Positions 7,584-15,090 of a stretch of 39,950 nucleotides of DNA are shown here, one piece after another; within the stretch, counting starts at the first letter, position 1, and the number at the start of each line of letters is the position of its first letter. This stretch comes from an uncultured Cetobacterium sp. Its GTDB lineage: Bacteria; Fusobacteriota; Fusobacteriia; Fusobacteriales; Fusobacteriaceae. Both the position numbers and the translations under genes were made by a program. The notes beneath the pieces are model-generated. The model searched no databases. It saw only the letters and a list, made by a program, of their open reading frames with translations, and was not told the origin of the DNA. Location: NCBI RefSeq assembly GCF_945952365.1, contig NZ_CAMFHX010000022.1, forward strand, positions 1-39,950, given 5' to 3'.

Positions 7584-8276
7584 CTATTTTTCTTCAGAGT
7601 CATTAGTTTCAGTTGCAGTTTCCTCTTCTTTCGGAATAGGATTTCCAAACATCCACTCTATTTGTCTTCTAACTCCAGTTAAGTCAATCTCTTGACCCTC
7701 TATCTCTAATTTATCAGTTTCAGGAATCGCTAAGAATCCATCTTCTATTGGAGCATCCTTTAATAAATTATGCTGTAATTTTATAGGGTTTTCAAATCCA
7801 AATGGTTTGAACTCTGTTTTTACACTTCTTATTAATTCATCATTTTTTGCAATCTCTTCTACTTGCTCTTCTGAGAATCTTCTTTGAGGTGGATATTCAG
7901 CAATGAATAAAGTTTCTGTTTTTACAAACTTTAACTCCTCTCCCTCTTTTTCAAAAACATCTATTGTATATCTTCCTCTAGTTTTTACTAAAAACTTATC
8001 GATATCTACAATCTTTTTTCCTACACCTAAAGGATCAACCATTGGAGTTAACTCTCCTCTAGAGATTAAATCATCGTCAGGACCATTTAATCTTACTTCA
8101 AATACTGTAGGTTTTGTTATCTCTTCAAAAGTTAAAACAATTGATAATCTCATCATTGGATGAGGAAATAACGGTTGAATTATATTATCAAAAGAGCCAA
8201 AAATATCTACAGCTCCTCCTATTTGTTGACTCATTTGTGCTGCATGTGCTACTACTACACTTCTTAACTTAGCCAT
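7584..8276 (-). CDS. Uncharacterised 230-residue cytoplasmic protein (possibly DUF6941-like N-terminal domain)
   Basis: I do not recognise a function. There is no signal peptide or membrane segment. The first ~110 residues read as a compact beta-rich domain (SVVVAHAAQMSQQIGGAVDI, then RLSIVLTF and VFEVRLNGPDD). This pattern recalls DUF6941-type proteins, but that is a weak memory match. The middle holds a second beta-rich segment and the C-terminal ~20 residues are acidic (Glu/Thr-rich). The frame is open to 8327, but a purine-rich AAAGGGGG sits about 5 nt before the ATG at 8276, so the longer start is rejected. It is a single-gene unit with a good promoter (8313-8341) and terminator. Confidence 0.7.
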   Translation of the reverse strand: MAKLRSVVVAHAAQMSQQIGGAVDIFGSFDNIIQPLFPHPMMRLSIVLTFEEITKPTVFEVRLNGPDDDLISRGELTPMVDPLGVGKKIVDIDKFLVKTRGRYTIDVFEKEGEELKFVKTETLFIAEYPPQRRFSEEQVEEIAKNDELIRSVKTEFKPFGFENPIKLQHNLLKDAPIEDGFLAIPETDKLEIEGQEIDLTGVRRQIEWMFGNPIPKEEETATETNDSEEK

Positions 8277-8312
8277 TTTATCCCCCTTTTTTTGGTTGTT
8301 TTGTTCTAATTT

Positions 8313-8341
8313 ACTATAGCATATCAATTTAGATTTGTAAA
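8313..8341 (-). promoter_or_regulatory. Promoter of the 230-residue protein gene
   Basis: TTTACA (8341-8336), 17-nt spacer, TATAGT (8318-8313) preceded by TGC (extended -10). It begins 3 nt after the stop codon of the histidine kinase gene. It also shows that translation from the longer frame start at 8327 is unlikely. Confidence 0.75.
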
Positions 8342-8344
8342 TTC

Positions 8345-10069
8345 CTATTTAAGGATCGTAAAAATAAAAATAGTACCTTTCCCCTCTTTAGAAATCACAT
8401 CTATTTTACCACCGCATCTCTCGACTAACTCTTTTACAATCGAAAGCCCCAATCCAGTTCCAGCTTTATTACTCGTTCTAGCTTTATCCACTCTATAGAA
8501 TCTTTCGAATATCTTTTCAATCTCCTCTGGACCTACTCCAACTCCGTTATCTTTCACACCAATTTTATATCTACTTTTTGTTTCTATTATAGATATCTCT
8601 ATCTCTGGAACTTTATTTCCTCTATAGATAATTGCATTTTCTACTAAATTTTTTAATATAGTCAATACTTTTTCAAAATCTATTTTCAACTCATTCTCTT
8701 TATTTAAAAGATTTAAATTATAAGAGATAGTTGCATCACTACTTTTTATTCTCTCGTTTAAAACCGCTTGAAGTTCTGTCTTAACTCTACTCACAGGAAC
8801 TTTTTCTATATTAACTATATTTGAACTTTCAATTTTACTTATATTTAAAAAATCTATGATTATATTTTCCAATTTATCAATATTATTTTTTATCGTTTTT
8901 ATAAACTGAATTTTTAAAGGATCTGGAGCATCCTCTAAAGCTATAACATATCCTTTTATATTTGTTAACGGAGTCTTCAATTCGTGACTTACATTACTTA
9001 TAAAAGTCTTCTGAACTTCAATCATTCCTTTAGTTGCAGTTATATCTTTAACTGATAAAAGATACCTTTGATCCTGATCTAAATATTTTACATTCACACT
9101 AAAATATCTTTTTAATCTTAAAATATAAACTTCCGACTTTTGATTTTGTTTCTCATTTATAGCTTTTTTCATCACATCAATAATCTCTAAATCTTTTATT
9201 AAATTCAAATAGTTAGTTTTATCTTTTTCATAAAGATAATTAAATTTACTATTTTTTATTATCAATCCTAGTTTTTCATCAAATAAACAAATTGAAGAAT
9301 CAATAGATGTTATAATTTGATGAAGAATTCTTTTCTCTCTATTCAAATTGATTATATTTTCTAAATTTTGCTTTTGCCACTTTTGTACAACATCCCAAAG
9401 ATTTAATATCCATGGATCTTTTTCAAAATATAAGTTTTCTCCATTACCTTTCTCTTTTAAAAAGTCTTCAATGACTTCAATTTTTCTATACAAATCTCTT
9501 TTCAAATAATTTTTATAAAAAGCGTGGATTATAAAATTTAAAAATGTAAAGAATAGTAGTTCTGCTAATAAAATTAACCTCAACATTCTCAGTGTCTCAC
9601 CATAGTTTTTAGAAACTCTTACAACTACCCTTTCGCCCTCTCTATTAACTCTTTTCACTGCATAATATGCCATTGTTTCGTCTGAAATACTACTCTTTCT
9701 AATATCAAATCCTGTTCCAGTATCTCTAACCTCTAAAACTTCTTTTCTGTTACCATGATTTTCTAACTTTTCTTCTTCGTTATATTTTCTCGAATCATAA
9801 ATAACTTTACCATCTAAAGCTATTATATTAAATCTCATATCAGAGTTTTCAAAAATTTGTTGGTAATCCTCTTTTTCATACTCTCTTATTAAATTTGATA
9901 TAATAAAAACATTTTCTTTCAATCCATTCTTTGCTCCATCTTTATATAGCGCTGATAAAAAAGAGATATTTGTAATAACAAATATTATCTCAATCATCAC
10001 TATAAAAAAAAGAGCAATTATCTCTTTTCTTCTAATCTGTATCCAACTCCTTTTACTGTTTTTATGCAC
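8345..10069 (-). CDS. phoR: PhoR-like sensor histidine kinase
   Basis: A membrane sensor kinase of up to 574 residues. Its layout is TM1 (about 17-41), an extracytoplasmic loop of about 120 residues, TM2 (about 161-184), a cytoplasmic PAS-like region (about 250-345), a HisKA H-box ISNVSHELKTPLTN with His362, then the N box (NLVENAI), G1 (DNGVGVG) and G2 (GTGLGLSIV) of the ATPase domain. Together with the upstream regulator and flanking pst genes this is the phosphate-sensing PhoR role, by inference. The gene overlaps the regulator by 52 nt if the GTG at 10069 is used. That GTG has no Shine-Dalgarno, so the start is uncertain. No terminator follows. Confidence 0.85.
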   Translation of the reverse strand: MHKNSKRSWIQIRRKEIIALFFIVMIEIIFVITNISFLSALYKDGAKNGLKENVFIISNLIREYEKEDYQQIFENSDMRFNIIALDGKVIYDSRKYNEEEKLENHGNRKEVLEVRDTGTGFDIRKSSISDETMAYYAVKRVNREGERVVVRVSKNYGETLRMLRLILLAELLFFTFLNFIIHAFYKNYLKRDLYRKIEVIEDFLKEKGNGENLYFEKDPWILNLWDVVQKWQKQNLENIINLNREKRILHQIITSIDSSICLFDEKLGLIIKNSKFNYLYEKDKTNYLNLIKDLEIIDVMKKAINEKQNQKSEVYILRLKRYFSVNVKYLDQDQRYLLSVKDITATKGMIEVQKTFISNVSHELKTPLTNIKGYVIALEDAPDPLKIQFIKTIKNNIDKLENIIIDFLNISKIESSNIVNIEKVPVSRVKTELQAVLNERIKSSDATISYNLNLLNKENELKIDFEKVLTILKNLVENAIIYRGNKVPEIEISIIETKSRYKIGVKDNGVGVGPEEIEKIFERFYRVDKARTSNKAGTGLGLSIVKELVERCGGKIDVISKEGKGTIFIFTILK

Positions 10070-10695
10070 TCAGTTAAAAATGGTATTTTTTCTCTTAACT
10101 TAGATATATAAACATCAACTGTTCTATCACCCGAATAGTAATTACTTCCCCAAACCTTGTCTAATATTTTCTCTCTACTTACAACTATCCCTTTATTCTT
10201 CACTAGAAGTAATAGTAAATCATACTCTTTTTTAGAAAGCTCTACCTCTACTCCGCTATTTGTCACTAAATGTTTATCTTCATCTATCTCTAACTCTAAG
10301 AATCTATTTCTTATTTTTTTATTTTTCTCTTGTTGATTAAGAAGCTTCTTACCTCTCAACAATAACTCTCTTGGATCGAAAGGTTTCTTCATATAGTCAT
10401 CTGCTCCAATCTCTAACCCTTTAAGAACATCTTCTACCTCTGTTTTAGCTGTTAACATAATAATATATGGCGTTCCATACTCATCTTCCATCTCTTTAAC
10501 AATTTTTGTGAAGTTTATCCCATCTAAATTGGGTAACATCAAATCTAAGATGATTAATTCATGTTTATCTTTTTTCAGATATTTTAACCCCTCTAAACCA
10601 TCAGAAGCTACAGTTACTTTATACCCCTCTTTTGTAAAATAGTAATTTATTAACGCTTGTATTTCTAAATCATCTTCAACTACTAGTACCTTCAT
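10018..10695 (-). CDS. phoB: PhoB/PhoP-like OmpR-family response regulator
   Basis: A 225-residue two-component regulator. The receiver domain spans 1-115 with acidic pocket EDD (7-9), phospho-acceptor Asp51 in ILDLMLPNLDG, and the conserved Lys104 in KKPFDP. The winged-helix DNA-binding domain covers about 130-225 (TVDVYISKLREKI recognition helix, VKGVGYRLE wing). Position between pstS and the sensor kinase, in a locus with PhoU and the Pst transporter, indicates phosphate-starvation control. Start: ATG at 10695 with GGGAG upstream. It is transcribed from an extended -10 promoter and perhaps also by readthrough of the pstS terminator. The 11-bp repeat arrays at 11682-11765 are its likely targets. 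Confidence 0.88.
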   Translation of the reverse strand: MKVLVVEDDLEIQALINYYFTKEGYKVTVASDGLEGLKYLKKDKHELIILDLMLPNLDGINFTKIVKEMEDEYGTPYIIMLTAKTEVEDVLKGLEIGADDYMKKPFDPRELLLRGKKLLNQQEKNKKIRNRFLELEIDEDKHLVTNSGVEVELSKKEYDLLLLLVKNKGIVVSREKILDKVWGSNYYSGDRTVDVYISKLREKIPFLTECIKTVKGVGYRLEEKR

Positions 10696-10721: not shown

Positions 10722-10730
10722 ATTATATCA
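10722..10730 (-). promoter_or_regulatory. Extended -10 promoter of the phoB-like gene
   Basis: TGATATAAT (TATAAT at 10727-10722 with TG 1 nt upstream) on the minus strand. No recognisable -35 is present, since the position is occupied by the pstS terminator hairpin. Confidence 0.5.
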
Positions 10731-10732
10731 CA

Positions 10733-10769
10733 AATATAAAAAAGGCGTCCCATTTTAATCAGGACACCT
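10733..10769 (-). terminator. Terminator of pstS
   Basis: AGGTGTCC pairing with GGACGCCT (one G-U pair; 10762-10769 with 10743-10750) and an 11-nt loop, followed on the minus strand by six T. The phoB-like gene starts about 40 nt further on, so leakage would co-express it with pstS. Confidence 0.8.
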
Positions 10770-10777
10770 ATATCATG

Positions 10778-11605
10778 CTATTTTGCTGGAACGAATCCTT
10801 CGTCTGAAACTACTCTTTGTCCGTCTGCTGATAATGCAAAATCAACTAATCCATTTACATCTTTATTATCTGTATCTATAACATACCAGTAGATCTCTCT
10901 AGCGATCGGGTATTTTTTATCTGCTACGTTTTGTACATTTGGTTCAACCGAATCAACTTTTAAACTTTTTACAGATTTATCCATGTATCCCATTCCAATA
11001 TATCCAATTGCATATTTATTATTTTTAGCTTCTTGCTTTATAGCTTCGTTTGATGGCATGTATAAAGTATTTCTTCCATACTCTGCATCTTTCTTAGTAT
11101 TCTCTTCTCTTATGATATGCTCTTTAAAGAACTCATGAGTACCAGATGATGAATCTCTTGATAAAACAACGATTGTTGCGTCGTCTCCTCCTAACTCTTT
11201 CCAGTTAGTAATCTCTCCTCTAAAGATTTTTGCTAAATCTAAATGATTTACATTATCTAGTTTGTTATTTTCATTTACAATTACTGTTATTCCATCATAT
11301 CCTAAAACAACCTCTTTTAATTTTAATCCTTTGTCTGCTGCTGTTTGTAACTCTTTTTCTTTTATATTTCTAGATGCCATTCCAATATCTGCAGTTCCAT
11401 TGATTAAAGATGAAATTCCTACTCCTGATCCTCCACCAGTTACAGCTATTCTCGCATCTTTGTTTTTCCCCATGTACTCTTCTGCGATGTATTGAGATAC
11501 GTTAACTATTGTATCTGAACCTTTTACTTGAATAACTTTTGATGCCATTGCTGTTGTTCCCATTAGTGCCATTAACCCCATTAGAAAAAACTTTTTCATT
11601 TTCAT
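10778..11605 (-). CDS. pstS: Phosphate ABC transporter substrate-binding protein
   Basis: A 275-residue periplasmic phosphate-binding protein. The signal peptide covers about residues 1-21 (cleavage likely after AMA). There is no lipobox cysteine, so it should be soluble in the periplasm, as fits a diderm. PstS landmarks: VKGSDTIVNV near the mature N-terminus, GGGSGVGISSLINGTADIGMASR, and SRDSSSGTHEFF, whose Ser/Arg/Thr residues bind phosphate in the family. Start: ATG at 11605, with AGGAGGAG 8 nt upstream. Transcribed from a promoter whose -35 is replaced by a Pho-box array (11682-11720), divergent from pstC. Confidence 0.95.
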   Translation of the reverse strand: MKMKKFFLMGLMALMGTTAMASKVIQVKGSDTIVNVSQYIAEEYMGKNKDARIAVTGGGSGVGISSLINGTADIGMASRNIKEKELQTAADKGLKLKEVVLGYDGITVIVNENNKLDNVNHLDLAKIFRGEITNWKELGGDDATIVVLSRDSSSGTHEFFKEHIIREENTKKDAEYGRNTLYMPSNEAIKQEAKNNKYAIGYIGMGYMDKSVKSLKVDSVEPNVQNVADKKYPIAREIYWYVIDTDNKDVNGLVDFALSADGQRVVSDEGFVPAK

Positions 11606-11666
11606 CTTTTAAACTCCTCCTGAATTTTATCTTAATTTTTCATTTCCTTTTTTTATTCTCAAGAGT

Positions 11667-11687
11667 AGTATAGAACATCTATGTTAA
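11667..11687 (-). promoter_or_regulatory. Pho-box-dependent promoter of pstS
   Basis: On the minus strand TTAACA (11687-11682), exactly 9 nt, then TATACT (11672-11667). There is no normal -35. Three more TTTACA-like hexamers lie upstream at 11-bp steps. Confidence 0.7.
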
Positions 11688-11765
11688 TCTAGTTTAAATT
11701 TAATGTAAAAAAACTGTAAAATATTTTTTACAGTTTTTTTACATGCTATTAATCCTATTTTAACA
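11682..11765. repeat. Symmetric Pho-box array: two sets of four 11-bp-phased hexamers
   Basis: Toward pstC (+): TTTACA 11727, TTTACA 11738, TTAATC 11749, TTAACA 11760. Toward pstS (-): TTTACA 11720, TTTACA 11709, TTTAAA 11698, TTAACA 11687. All steps are 11 bp, which matches direct-repeat sites of PhoB/PhoP-type regulators. The inner halves form a perfect 19-bp inverted repeat (11703-11721 with 11726-11744). Confidence 0.8.
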
Positions 11766-11780
11766 AGTAAGATATATTAT
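11760..11780 (+). promoter_or_regulatory. Pho-box-dependent promoter of pstC-pstA-pstB-phoU
   Basis: TTAACA (11760-11765), exactly 9 nt, then TATTAT (11775-11780). It is the mirror image of the pstS promoter and likewise has no standard -35. Confidence 0.7.
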
Positions 11781-11791
11781 ATTCATAGTGA

Positions 11792-11820
11792 GTTTAAATT
11801 TTGTTTAAAAACAGTTTAAA
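11792..11820. repeat. Three GTTTAAA direct repeats at 11-bp spacing
   Basis: GTTTAAA starts at 11792, 11803 and 11814. They lie in the predicted 5' untranslated region of pstC. Read on the minus strand they precede a perfect TATAAT (11781-11776) by about 10 nt, so they may be a second Pho array facing pstS. Confidence 0.6.
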
Positions 11821-11859
11821 ATTTTTTTAATTTTTTAACATAGGCTTAGGAGGTTTGTC

Positions 11860-12741
11860 ATGCATAGTATAAGAAAGATTAAAGACTCGATTATGAGCGG
11901 TGTTCACTCAGTTATTGGAATCTTTAACATTCTAATTGTTATACTTATTTTTATCTTTATTTTAGTAAATAGTTTATCATTCTTTAAGGAATATCCAATT
12001 TCAAAATTCTTTACCGGAACTGATTGGATCTCTCTTTCTGGAAAATATGGTCTTTTACCATTATTAGTCGGTTCATTTTGGGTAACTGTAGTTGCATTAG
12101 GAATTTCTGTTCCAATAGGAATAACTACAACAATATATCTATCTGAGTTTGCTAGCAAAAAAACGAAAAAAACATTAAAAATTATCATAGAAACAATGTC
12201 AGCTCTACCGTCAGTTGTTCTTGGATATTTAGGACTTTATGTTCTTTCTGGATTTGTAAAAACAACTTTTGGTTTACCAAGTGGATTAAACGCTTTAACT
12301 GGTGGAATAATGCTTTCATTTATGGCGATCCCTACTATTGTAAGTTTATCTGATGATGCATTAAACGCTTTAGATAAATCTTACAGAGAAGCTTCTTTAG
12401 CTCTTGGCGCAAATAAACTTGAGACTGTTTTCAAAATTCTTTTACCTGCAGCTTTCCCAGGTATATTCGCTGGTATAATGCTTGGATTCGGAAGAATTAT
12501 CGGTGAAACAATGGCCGTACTTATGATTACAGGAAATGCACCAATAATGGCAACAACACCACTTTCTCCTGTAAGAACATTAACTGCTACTATAGCTGCT
12601 GAAATGGGAGAGGTTGTTCAAGGAAGTAAACATTATCACGCTTTATTTGCAATCGGATTAGTTTTATTCGCTATCAGTTTCTTAACAAACAGTATCGCTG
12701 ATAAATATATCCGTAAATCAAGAAAGTTAATGGGTAAATAG
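11860..12741 (+). CDS. pstC: Phosphate ABC transporter permease PstC
   Basis: A 293-residue inner-membrane permease with six predicted helices. The MetI-type EAA loop reads SYREASLALGANKLETVFKI, where the ABC subunit docks. It pairs with PstA to form the phosphate channel. The start ATG (11860) has GGAGG 6 nt upstream. It is first in the plus-strand operon pstC-pstA-pstB-phoU and divergent from pstS. Its stop codon overlaps the pstA ribosome binding site, so translation of the two permeases is probably coupled. PstC is called rather than PstA from gene order and similarity to typical PstC N-termini. Confidence 0.93.
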   Translation: MHSIRKIKDSIMSGVHSVIGIFNILIVILIFIFILVNSLSFFKEYPISKFFTGTDWISLSGKYGLLPLLVGSFWVTVVALGISVPIGITTTIYLSEFASKKTKKTLKIIIETMSALPSVVLGYLGLYVLSGFVKTTFGLPSGLNALTGGIMLSFMAIPTIVSLSDDALNALDKSYREASLALGANKLETVFKILLPAAFPGIFAGIMLGFGRIIGETMAVLMITGNAPIMATTPLSPVRTLTATIAAEMGEVVQGSKHYHALFAIGLVLFAISFLTNSIADKYIRKSRKLMGK

Positions 12742-12753
12742 GAGGAGTAAAAA

Positions 12754-13593
12754 ATGAATATTTTAAAAGGAAAAAGCGGTACATTTATAGAACTTTTAAT
12801 TAAGTCAGTTGCTTTACTAGCTGTTGTACCAATATTTCTAATATTAGGTTATATAGTTTATAAAGGTGTTCCTGCTATCACTTGGGAGTTTTTAACGGAA
12901 GTTCCAAGAAGAGGTATGAGAGCTGGTGGAATTTTCCCAGCTATTGTCGGAACTATCTATCTAACTCTAGGAACTATAGCTGTTTCAGTTCCATTTGGAA
13001 TATTCACTGGAGTTTATCTAGTTGAATATGCTAAAGATAATATGTTAACAAGAATAATAAATCTTACTATTATAAATCTAGCTGGAATTCCAAGTATAAT
13101 ATATGGACTTTTCGGAATGTCACTGTTTGTAATATACTTCAAATTAGGAGTTTCTATTCTTTCAGGATCATTAACTCTTGGTATTATGTGTTTACCAGTT
13201 ATTATAACTGCAACAAGAGAATCACTACTAGCTGTTCCCAATAGTTTAAGAGAAGCATCTCTTGCTCTTGGAGCTACAAAGTGGGAAACAGTTTCAAAAA
13301 TTGTTATCCCTGCAGCACTTCCGGGAATTTCAACTGGAGTTATCTTAAGTATATCTAGAGCTGCTGGAGAAACAGCACCAATACTATTTACTGCTGCTGC
13401 TTTCTACTTACCATTCCTGCCTCAATCAATCTTTGATCAGGTTATGGCACTACCGTATCACCTTTATGTTATCTCTACACAAGTTCCAAATATGCCACAA
13501 AGCAATATGCACGGAACTCTATTTATCCTTGTGTTTATAACTGTTGGATTTAACCTTATTGGTGCGTACATTAGAAATAAATTTGAAAAATAA
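12754..13593 (+). CDS. pstA: Phosphate ABC transporter permease PstA
   Basis: A 279-residue inner-membrane permease with six predicted helices and the EAA loop SLREASLALGATKWETVSKI. The motif VPRRGMRAGGIFPAIVGT near residues 48-65 is typical of PstA. It forms the translocation channel with PstC. The ribosome binding site TAGGAGGAG begins in the pstC stop codon, 12 nt upstream of the ATG. The pstB gene follows after 30 nt. Confidence 0.94.
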   Translation: MNILKGKSGTFIELLIKSVALLAVVPIFLILGYIVYKGVPAITWEFLTEVPRRGMRAGGIFPAIVGTIYLTLGTIAVSVPFGIFTGVYLVEYAKDNMLTRIINLTIINLAGIPSIIYGLFGMSLFVIYFKLGVSILSGSLTLGIMCLPVIITATRESLLAVPNSLREASLALGATKWETVSKIVIPAALPGISTGVILSISRAAGETAPILFTAAAFYLPFLPQSIFDQVMALPYHLYVISTQVPNMPQSNMHGTLFILVFITVGFNLIGAYIRNKFEK

Positions 13594-13623: not shown

Positions 13624-14385
13624 ATGAAACAAGATGTTAGAATATCTGTAAAAGACTTTAACTTTTACTACGGTGATTTCAAAGCTTTAAAAGGCATAAA
13701 TATGGATATATTAAAAAATAAAGTTACTGCACTAATCGGTCCATCTGGTTGTGGAAAGTCAACTTTCTTAAGATCAATAAATAGAATGAATGATTTAATA
13801 ACTGGAGTTAAATACGAAGGTGAGATTCTTCTAGATGATCAAAATGTTTTTGATAAGCAGTTTGATATCGTTGAACTTCGTAAAAAAGTTGGAATGGTTT
13901 TCCAAAAACCAAATCCATTTCCTAAGACAATCTATGAAAATTTAGTTTATGCTCCTAAGTTACACGGAGAAACTGATAAGAAAAAATTAGATGAAATTGT
14001 TGAATCATCTTTAAAAGCTGTTGCTCTTTGGGATGAAGTAAAAGATAAACTTCACCAATCAGCTCTTGGATTATCTGGAGGACAACAACAAAGACTTTGT
14101 ATAGCTAGAGCTATCTCTATCAATCCTGAAATCCTACTTATGGATGAACCTACTTCAGCTCTAGATCCTATATCTACAGCTAAGATAGAGGAGCTTATCG
14201 TTGAGTTAGCTAAAAACTACAGTATCGTTATCGTTACTCACAATATGCAACAAGCATCAAGAATATCAGATTACACAGGATTTTTCTACCAAGGTGTTCT
14301 AGAAGAGTTTGATGAAACTTCTACAATCTTTACTACACCTAAAGTTAAAAAGACTGAAGACTATATCACAGGAAAATTCGGATAA
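13624..14385 (+). CDS. pstB: Phosphate ABC transporter ATP-binding protein
   Basis: A 253-residue ATPase that powers PstCA. Walker A is GPSGCGKST (residues 39-47), the Q-loop lies in [17 protein letters not shown], the ABC signature is LSGGQQQR, Walker B is [13 protein letters not shown] and the switch His lies in VTHNMQQ. The FPKTIYENL segment is characteristic of PstB among ABC ATPases. Length is normal (about 250). Start ATG at 13624, with GGAGGAG 7-8 nt upstream. phoU follows after 12 nt. Confidence 0.97.
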
Positions 14386-14397
14386 AAAGGAGATTTT

Positions 14398-15090
14398 ATG
14401 AGAACTTTAATTGAATCTTTAAAAGCACTAGATGAACACTATTTAGAAACATTAAAATATGTTGGAAGAAATTTTGATGTAAACTTAGAGATGCTTCAAA
14501 ATAACAGCTTCAATCCAACTCTTTATGGAGAAGCTAAAATGATAGAGGATTTTATAAACTCTTTTGAGGTTAAATTAAAAGAGGATTCTATAATTACTAT
14601 GGCTAGATTCCAACCTGCTGCTAAAAATCTTAGAAAACTAGTTATGATAATTAACAGTGTTAGAGTTTTAGAAAGAATGGGTGACCTTTTAAAAGCAAAC
14701 CTTACTCTTATTAAAGATATTGAAAAAAAGTCACCAAACTTAGCTTATGCTATGAGCGAAAGAGTTTTACCAATTGCTAAAAAAATTAGAGGACTTTTCG
14801 GAATGTATGTTGAAGCTTTCTTAAACGAAGATGTAAGTTTACTTTATAACATCTTATATCTAGATGAAGAGATTGATGATTTAATCGATGAAAACACTAA
14901 CTATTTCTTAGGTAAAATGAGAGAAACTCCTGACAATGTTGTTGGAGGATCAGAACTTATGTTACTTGATAAGAAGTTTGAGAGATTATCAGATCATATA
15001 ATTCATCTAGCAAGTGATTTAATCTACATTTTAAATGGAGAGAACACTAGAAAAGCTGAACTAGAAAGTCAAATTAAAACTAAAAAATAA
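14398..15090 (+). CDS. phoU: Phosphate signalling protein PhoU
   Basis: A 230-residue, nearly all-helical cytoplasmic protein made of two tandem three-helix PhoU repeats. Each repeat carries the family's E-R-x-(G/S)-D metal-binding motif: LERMGD in the first (about residue 97) and FERLSDH in the second. It damps the PhoR-PhoB response when phosphate is plentiful, probably through contacts with PstB and PhoR. The N-terminal ~40 residues diverge from the usual HF-x-x-EL opening, but the rest fits. It is last in the pst operon, 12 nt after pstB, with AAGGAG just upstream of the ATG. Confidence 0.92.
   Translation: MRTLIESLKALDEHYLETLKYVGRNFDVNLEMLQNNSFNPTLYGEAKMIEDFINSFEVKLKEDSIITMARFQPAAKNLRKLVMIINSVRVLERMGDLLKANLTLIKDIEKKSPNLAYAMSERVLPIAKKIRGLFGMYVEAFLNEDVSLLYNILYLDEEIDDLIDENTNYFLGKMRETPDNVVGGSELMLLDKKFERLSDHIIHLASDLIYILNGENTRKAELESQIKTKK

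Follow-up and report, generated by a model that had tools for sequence, protein, structure and literature searches.

The window, that is the whole stretch of 39,950 nucleotides that was analysed, lies on a contig that is part of a 2.5-Mb genome. An intergenic region (11606-11859) separates pstS, on the minus strand, from pstC, on the plus strand. The pstC gene is followed by pstA, pstB and a phoU-like gene, and pstS by the genes for a response regulator and a histidine kinase:

8345-10069, minus strand: PhoR/PnpS-like histidine kinase, start codon uncertain
10018-10695, minus strand: OmpR/PhoB-family response regulator, best NCBIfam match PhoB (TIGR02154)
10743-10769, minus strand: terminator-like hairpin with T run, in the gap between pstS and the regulator gene
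10778-11605, minus strand: pstS, phosphate-binding protein (TIGR02136, above cut-off)
11860-12741, plus strand: pstC, permease (TIGR02138, above cut-off)
12754-13593, plus strand: pstA, permease (TIGR00974, above cut-off)
13624-14385, plus strand: pstB, ATPase (TIGR00972, above cut-off)
14398-15090, plus strand: phoU-like gene (TIGR02135, 97.8 bits, under its cut-off of 130.25)

The product of 10018-10695 combines a receiver domain with an OmpR-type winged helix and matched OmpR-family regulators of the PDB over its full length. Among 96 families, PhoB (TIGR02154) gave the top match and covered residues 2-221, with a score of 189.7 bits that lies below the NCBIfam equivalog cut-off of 296.2; the protein was therefore named PhoB/PhoP-like, and not PhoB proper. 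The gene after the kinase (7584-8327, minus strand) matched the Pfam family DUF6941 only weakly, at 24.6 bits versus a cut-off of 27.

Two mirrored hexamer arrays between pstS and pstC

Direct reading of the intergenic sequence revealed two outward-pointing arrays, each with four hexamers at steps of exactly 11 bp, which together span 11682-11765. Each has the form hexamer-N5-hexamer-N5-hexamer-N5-hexamer and is followed, after N9, by a -10:

11667-11672, minus strand: TATACT, -10 of the predicted pstS promoter, 9 nt past box 4
11681-11673, minus strand: 9-nt gap, pstS side
11682-11687, minus strand: box 4 of the pstS array, TTAACA
11693-11698, minus strand: box 3 of the pstS array, TTTAAA, conserved weak variant
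11704-11709, minus strand: box 2 of the pstS array, TTTACA
11715-11720, minus strand: box 1 of the pstS array, TTTACA
11721-11726, no strand: 6-bp joint between the arrays, AT-rich
11727-11732, plus strand: box 1 of the pstC array, TTTACA
11738-11743, plus strand: box 2 of the pstC array, TTTACA
11749-11754, plus strand: box 3 of the pstC array, TTAATC, conserved weak variant
11760-11765, plus strand: box 4 of the pstC array, TTAACA
11766-11774, plus strand: 9-nt gap, pstC side
11775-11780, plus strand: TATTAT, -10 of the predicted pstC promoter, 9 nt past box 4

A sequence-only reading of this DNA had already located the hexamers, with their 11-bp steps, the 9-nt gaps and the two -10 words, and all of these were found as described. 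The perfect 19-bp inverted repeat that it had reported for the inner halves is also present (11703-11721 / 11726-11744), and measures 18 bp when the joint is excluded. Its account of four TTTACA/TTAACA-like hexamers per direction, making eight sites, had to be amended: it holds for boxes 1, 2 and 4, that is for six strong hexamers, but not for the two copies of box 3, which are conserved weak sites in relatives too.

Scored against TTWACA, the two arrays reached 22 and 23 out of 24, and did so at period 11 alone among the periods tried (6 to 19). Among 3,000 dinucleotide-preserving shuffles of 11606-11859, none reached a score of 22 on either strand, and the best scored 21. No good -35 hexamer was seen 17 nt before either -10 when the sequence was read directly. 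Pho boxes are direct-repeat units of 11 nt (PMC4415409), a canonical -35 is missing from PhoB promoters, where PhoB recruits sigma domain 4 (PMC4496699), and the spacing from the boxes to the core promoter is expected to be strict (PMC10294691). The region between pstS and pstC displays direct repeats of 11-bp period, a position upstream of phosphate-acquisition genes, and the absence of a canonical -35 together with a fixed distance from array to -10.

The pstC leader (11792-11820, plus strand) contains three GTTTAAA units, also at exact 11-bp steps. These units lie in a 38-nt segment that repeats 11691-11728 with 82% identity, and are partly retained solely in close relatives (L018-L023). 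It is possible that they provide extra weak sites for the regulator.

Conservation of the arrays and sites before other genes

PstC was searched in 61 Fusobacteriaceae genomes and was present in 47. Upstream regions were collected for 48 loci (these 47 and one from another family of the same order), oriented, and the best four-hexamer array of each was scanned on the hexamers alone. The pstS gene is divergent from pstC in 33 loci from six genera, and both arrays, one per direction, are present in all 33. The mirrored layout is kept in about half of the Fusobacteriaceae. Regulator orthologs adjoin pstS in divergent loci. The word TANNNT occurred at gap 9 in 76 arrays out of 76, as against 0-21% at the other gaps (2 to 25). 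The hexamer phase, the 9-nt gap and the -10, proposed by the sequence-only reading as features to compare in relatives, are kept across the family.

The four boxes differ in sequence. TTTACA was found as box 1 in 60 and as box 2 in 68 of the 76 arrays, and box 4 was TTAACA in 42 and TTTACA in 23. Box 3 was never TTWACA in these arrays; it read mostly TTAATA (32 arrays), TTAATC (9), TTTAAA (7) or TTAATT (7) and is a conserved weak variant, a point absent from the sequence-only reading. When box 3 was left unconstrained, the array pattern gave 98 matches in the 61 genomes and none in the reversed control. Outside the divergent arrays, C was present at position 5 of box 3 in one of 29 sites of a hand-compiled list, from which near-identical copies were omitted and to which a few one-directional sites close to pst-like genes belong.

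Most non-divergent loci retain a single good array before pstC. At five of these pstC promoters (L038, L040, L041, L042 and L160), an inverted TGTAAA lies 2-4 bp upstream of box 1, which may represent a single mirrored half-site even without a divergent gene.

A search of the own genome for the array followed by a -10, with up to three mismatches, produced 12 matches, versus none for the reversed pattern. In eleven of them the -10 stands 24-85 nt ahead of a start codon. The targets are pstS and pstC, an alkaline phosphatase, a histidine acid phosphatase, an ABC permease, solute-binding proteins, an ABC ATPase, a choice-of-anchor I protein and one protein without a Pfam match. The remaining match, 303 nt before an IS605-type gene, may be due to chance. 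Judged by its predicted members, this is the target set that a Pho regulon should look like. The occurrence of the same array before phosphatase and transporter genes supports the earlier reading of a Pho-type operator. Since the array is both conserved and placed before such genes, its identity as a Pho operator of the PhoB/PhoP type can be considered close to certain by comparative standards.

In four loci of uncultured phyla (Omnitrophota, Saganbacteria and Elusimicrobia; L099, L140, L094 and L106), TTAACA/TTTACA repeats at 11-bp steps were observed roughly 930-1000 bp ahead of pstC, and some of them are followed at 9 nt by a -10-like word. The Pho code of these arrays may be widespread. 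The mirror layout did not appear above the score threshold at any of the related PstC loci in other phyla (L068-L143).

The joint between the two arrays

The distance from box 1 to box 1 is 6 bp in 31 of the 33 divergent loci, in six genera. (For one locus, L162, the register given by the script was one off, an 11-bp shift, and was corrected by hand.) The joint measures 3 bp in L028 and 5 bp in L043, so that a length of 6 bp is not absolutely required; in both of these loci the pstS-side box 1 is also degenerate. The letters of the joint differ between loci (ATATTT, AAAAAT, TTTTTT, AAAGAT, TAACAT, AAACTT). With a joint of 6 bp the centres of the inner hexamers are separated by 12 bp, close to one helical turn, which would place the eight hexamers on roughly one face of the DNA. 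A mirror pattern of two perfect boxes per side, with the joint free to vary from 0 to 25 bp, was found in 15 of the 61 genomes; every match was at the pst locus and had N6, and the controls gave none. It is mainly because of this fixed length, not remarked on in the sequence-only reading, that we treat the two arrays as one operator. The idea of one shared operator, put forward in that reading, is supported in this way, the fixed joint being the strongest argument for the arrays acting as a unit. Coupling of the two arrays is likely on these comparisons.

The arrays could instead be two independent Pho promoters lying back to back, uncoupled, with a joint that was merely inherited or that corresponds to a steric minimum. 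The divergent loci all fall in one clade, with a single change between divergent and tandem layout on the PstC tree, as expected for an inherited arrangement, and an array can stand alone, as it does before pstC in most non-divergent loci. However, nearby insertions and deletions are frequent: on this tree, a quick one in which many inner branches are weakly supported, joint length changed twice versus 23 changes for leader length (from the -10 to the ribosome-binding site), while the letters of the joint changed freely. A steric minimum would moreover permit longer joints, and none was seen in the 33 divergent loci. We regard independence as unlikely, while granting it an appreciable share of the probability.

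The perfect inverted repeat of the inner halves and its fixed spacing would also suit a second, dimeric regulator (GlnR-, Crp- or Rex-like) bound to the central TGTAAA-N6-TTTACA, the impression of an array then being secondary. Yet box 2, which lies outside the core of the palindrome, is better conserved than box 1, the arrays before other genes are one-directional and have no mirror partner at 6 bp, and the genome shows no clear enrichment of TGTAAA-N6-TTTACA (3 sites versus about 1.5 per spacing). A separate palindrome-binding regulator was rejected on the conservation of box 2 and the lack of a clear genome-wide N6 excess, and we consider it very improbable. Finally, ordinary sigma-70 promoters with chance -35-like words would fit the AT-rich character of the region, where a generic sigma-70 promoter scan gave as many matches as in shuffles, but this explanation was rejected, its probability being practically negligible, as no shuffle reached the array score, the arrays are conserved family-wide and neither -10 is preceded by a good -35 at 17 nt.

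Proposed mechanism and comparison with known systems

We propose that the two arrays form a double-headed Pho operator for pstS and pstCAB-phoU, with a probability of roughly four in five for the full mechanism that follows. When phosphate runs out, the regulator of PhoB/PhoP type from 10018-10695, the likely binder of the operator, would in its phosphorylated form occupy the 11-bp repeats head-to-tail, probably with two dimers on each array. Boxes 3 and 4, at the promoter-proximal end, would substitute for the -35 and recruit sigma-70 RNA polymerase to the -10, which follows box 4 at exactly 9 nt, directing transcription of pstS one way and of pstCAB-phoU the other way. The upstream ends of the arrays would meet at the 6-bp joint, with the innermost hexamers on the same DNA face, and the arrays would probably be filled as one cooperative unit, so that both halves of the uptake system are switched on together. 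We infer regulator binding, the number of dimers, cooperativity across the joint and phosphate control from sequence comparison; the role of the array in place of a -35 is carried over by analogy from E. coli PhoB, for which it is established (PMC4496699).

The position of box 4 is intermediate between those usual for a -35 and a -10; a normal -35 would overlap the last part of box 3 and the following spacer. It is suggestive that box 3 is systematically weak at the expected place of sigma domain 4. A stronger version of the proposal would have an obligate eight-subunit assembly, nucleated at the joint through contacts of oppositely facing regulators, such that the pst halves are induced only together, box 3 being a built-in weak site contacted by sigma domain 4 and not by the regulator alone. 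We put this version forward tentatively, as possible but less probable than not.

The hairpin at 10743-10769 may leave pstS mRNA more abundant than the mRNA of the phoB/phoR-like genes, so that PstS would exceed the regulator, while transcripts extending through the hairpin would provide positive feedback. An extended -10-like word, TGATATAAT, is present just upstream of the regulator gene (10722-10730, minus strand) and is possibly the gene's own basal promoter.

The replacement of a -35 by Pho boxes is already known. The mirrored 4+4 layout, the fixed 6-bp joint and the weak third box look undescribed as far as the literature was searched; the search, of partial coverage such that absence proves little, found neither a paper on Pho boxes in Fusobacteria, nor a mirrored Pho operator, nor a described Pho regulon for the Fusobacteriaceae. 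For this family the arrays give a predictive Pho promoter code, TTTACA-N5-TTTACA-N5-weak box-N5-TTWACA-N9-TANNNT, which can be used in regulon annotation. The fixed joint constitutes a natural experiment on the behaviour of OmpR-family regulators, whose sites are normally read as head-to-tail repeats, at the meeting point of two filaments, and renders coupled divergent activation directly testable through joint length.

In E. coli, the PhoB boxes upstream of pstS, whose sequence we confirmed at that position, likewise comprise four hexamers (CTGTCA/CTTACA) at 11-bp steps before a -10 without a proper -35. They run in one direction, whereas the arrays here are mirrored. Read in the same hexamer frame, the E. 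coli boxes are separated from their -10 (TATTTT, assigned by eye) by 11 nt, versus 9 here, so that the Fusobacteriaceae geometry is 2 bp tighter. The third E. coli box, CTTACA, retains the CA that box 3 of the Fusobacteriaceae lacks.

The PhoP boxes of Bacillus subtilis follow TT[ACT]A[CT]A with spacers of about 5 bp and a core at about -60 to -20. Compared in this general form, they agree with the present arrays in hexamer, 11-bp period, number of repeats (four) and position relative to the -10; we know of no mirrored 4+4 operator with a fixed joint in B. subtilis.

In Streptomyces, the parts of the literature consulted do not describe a mirrored operator, and the unit given there is GC-rich (GTTCACC; PMC4415409), unlike the AT-rich hexamers here. 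The PHO boxes of Streptomyces are made up of direct repeats of 11 nt, with between two and five units at a promoter (PMC7866108), and likewise present tandem units, variable in number, to a PhoP-type regulator.
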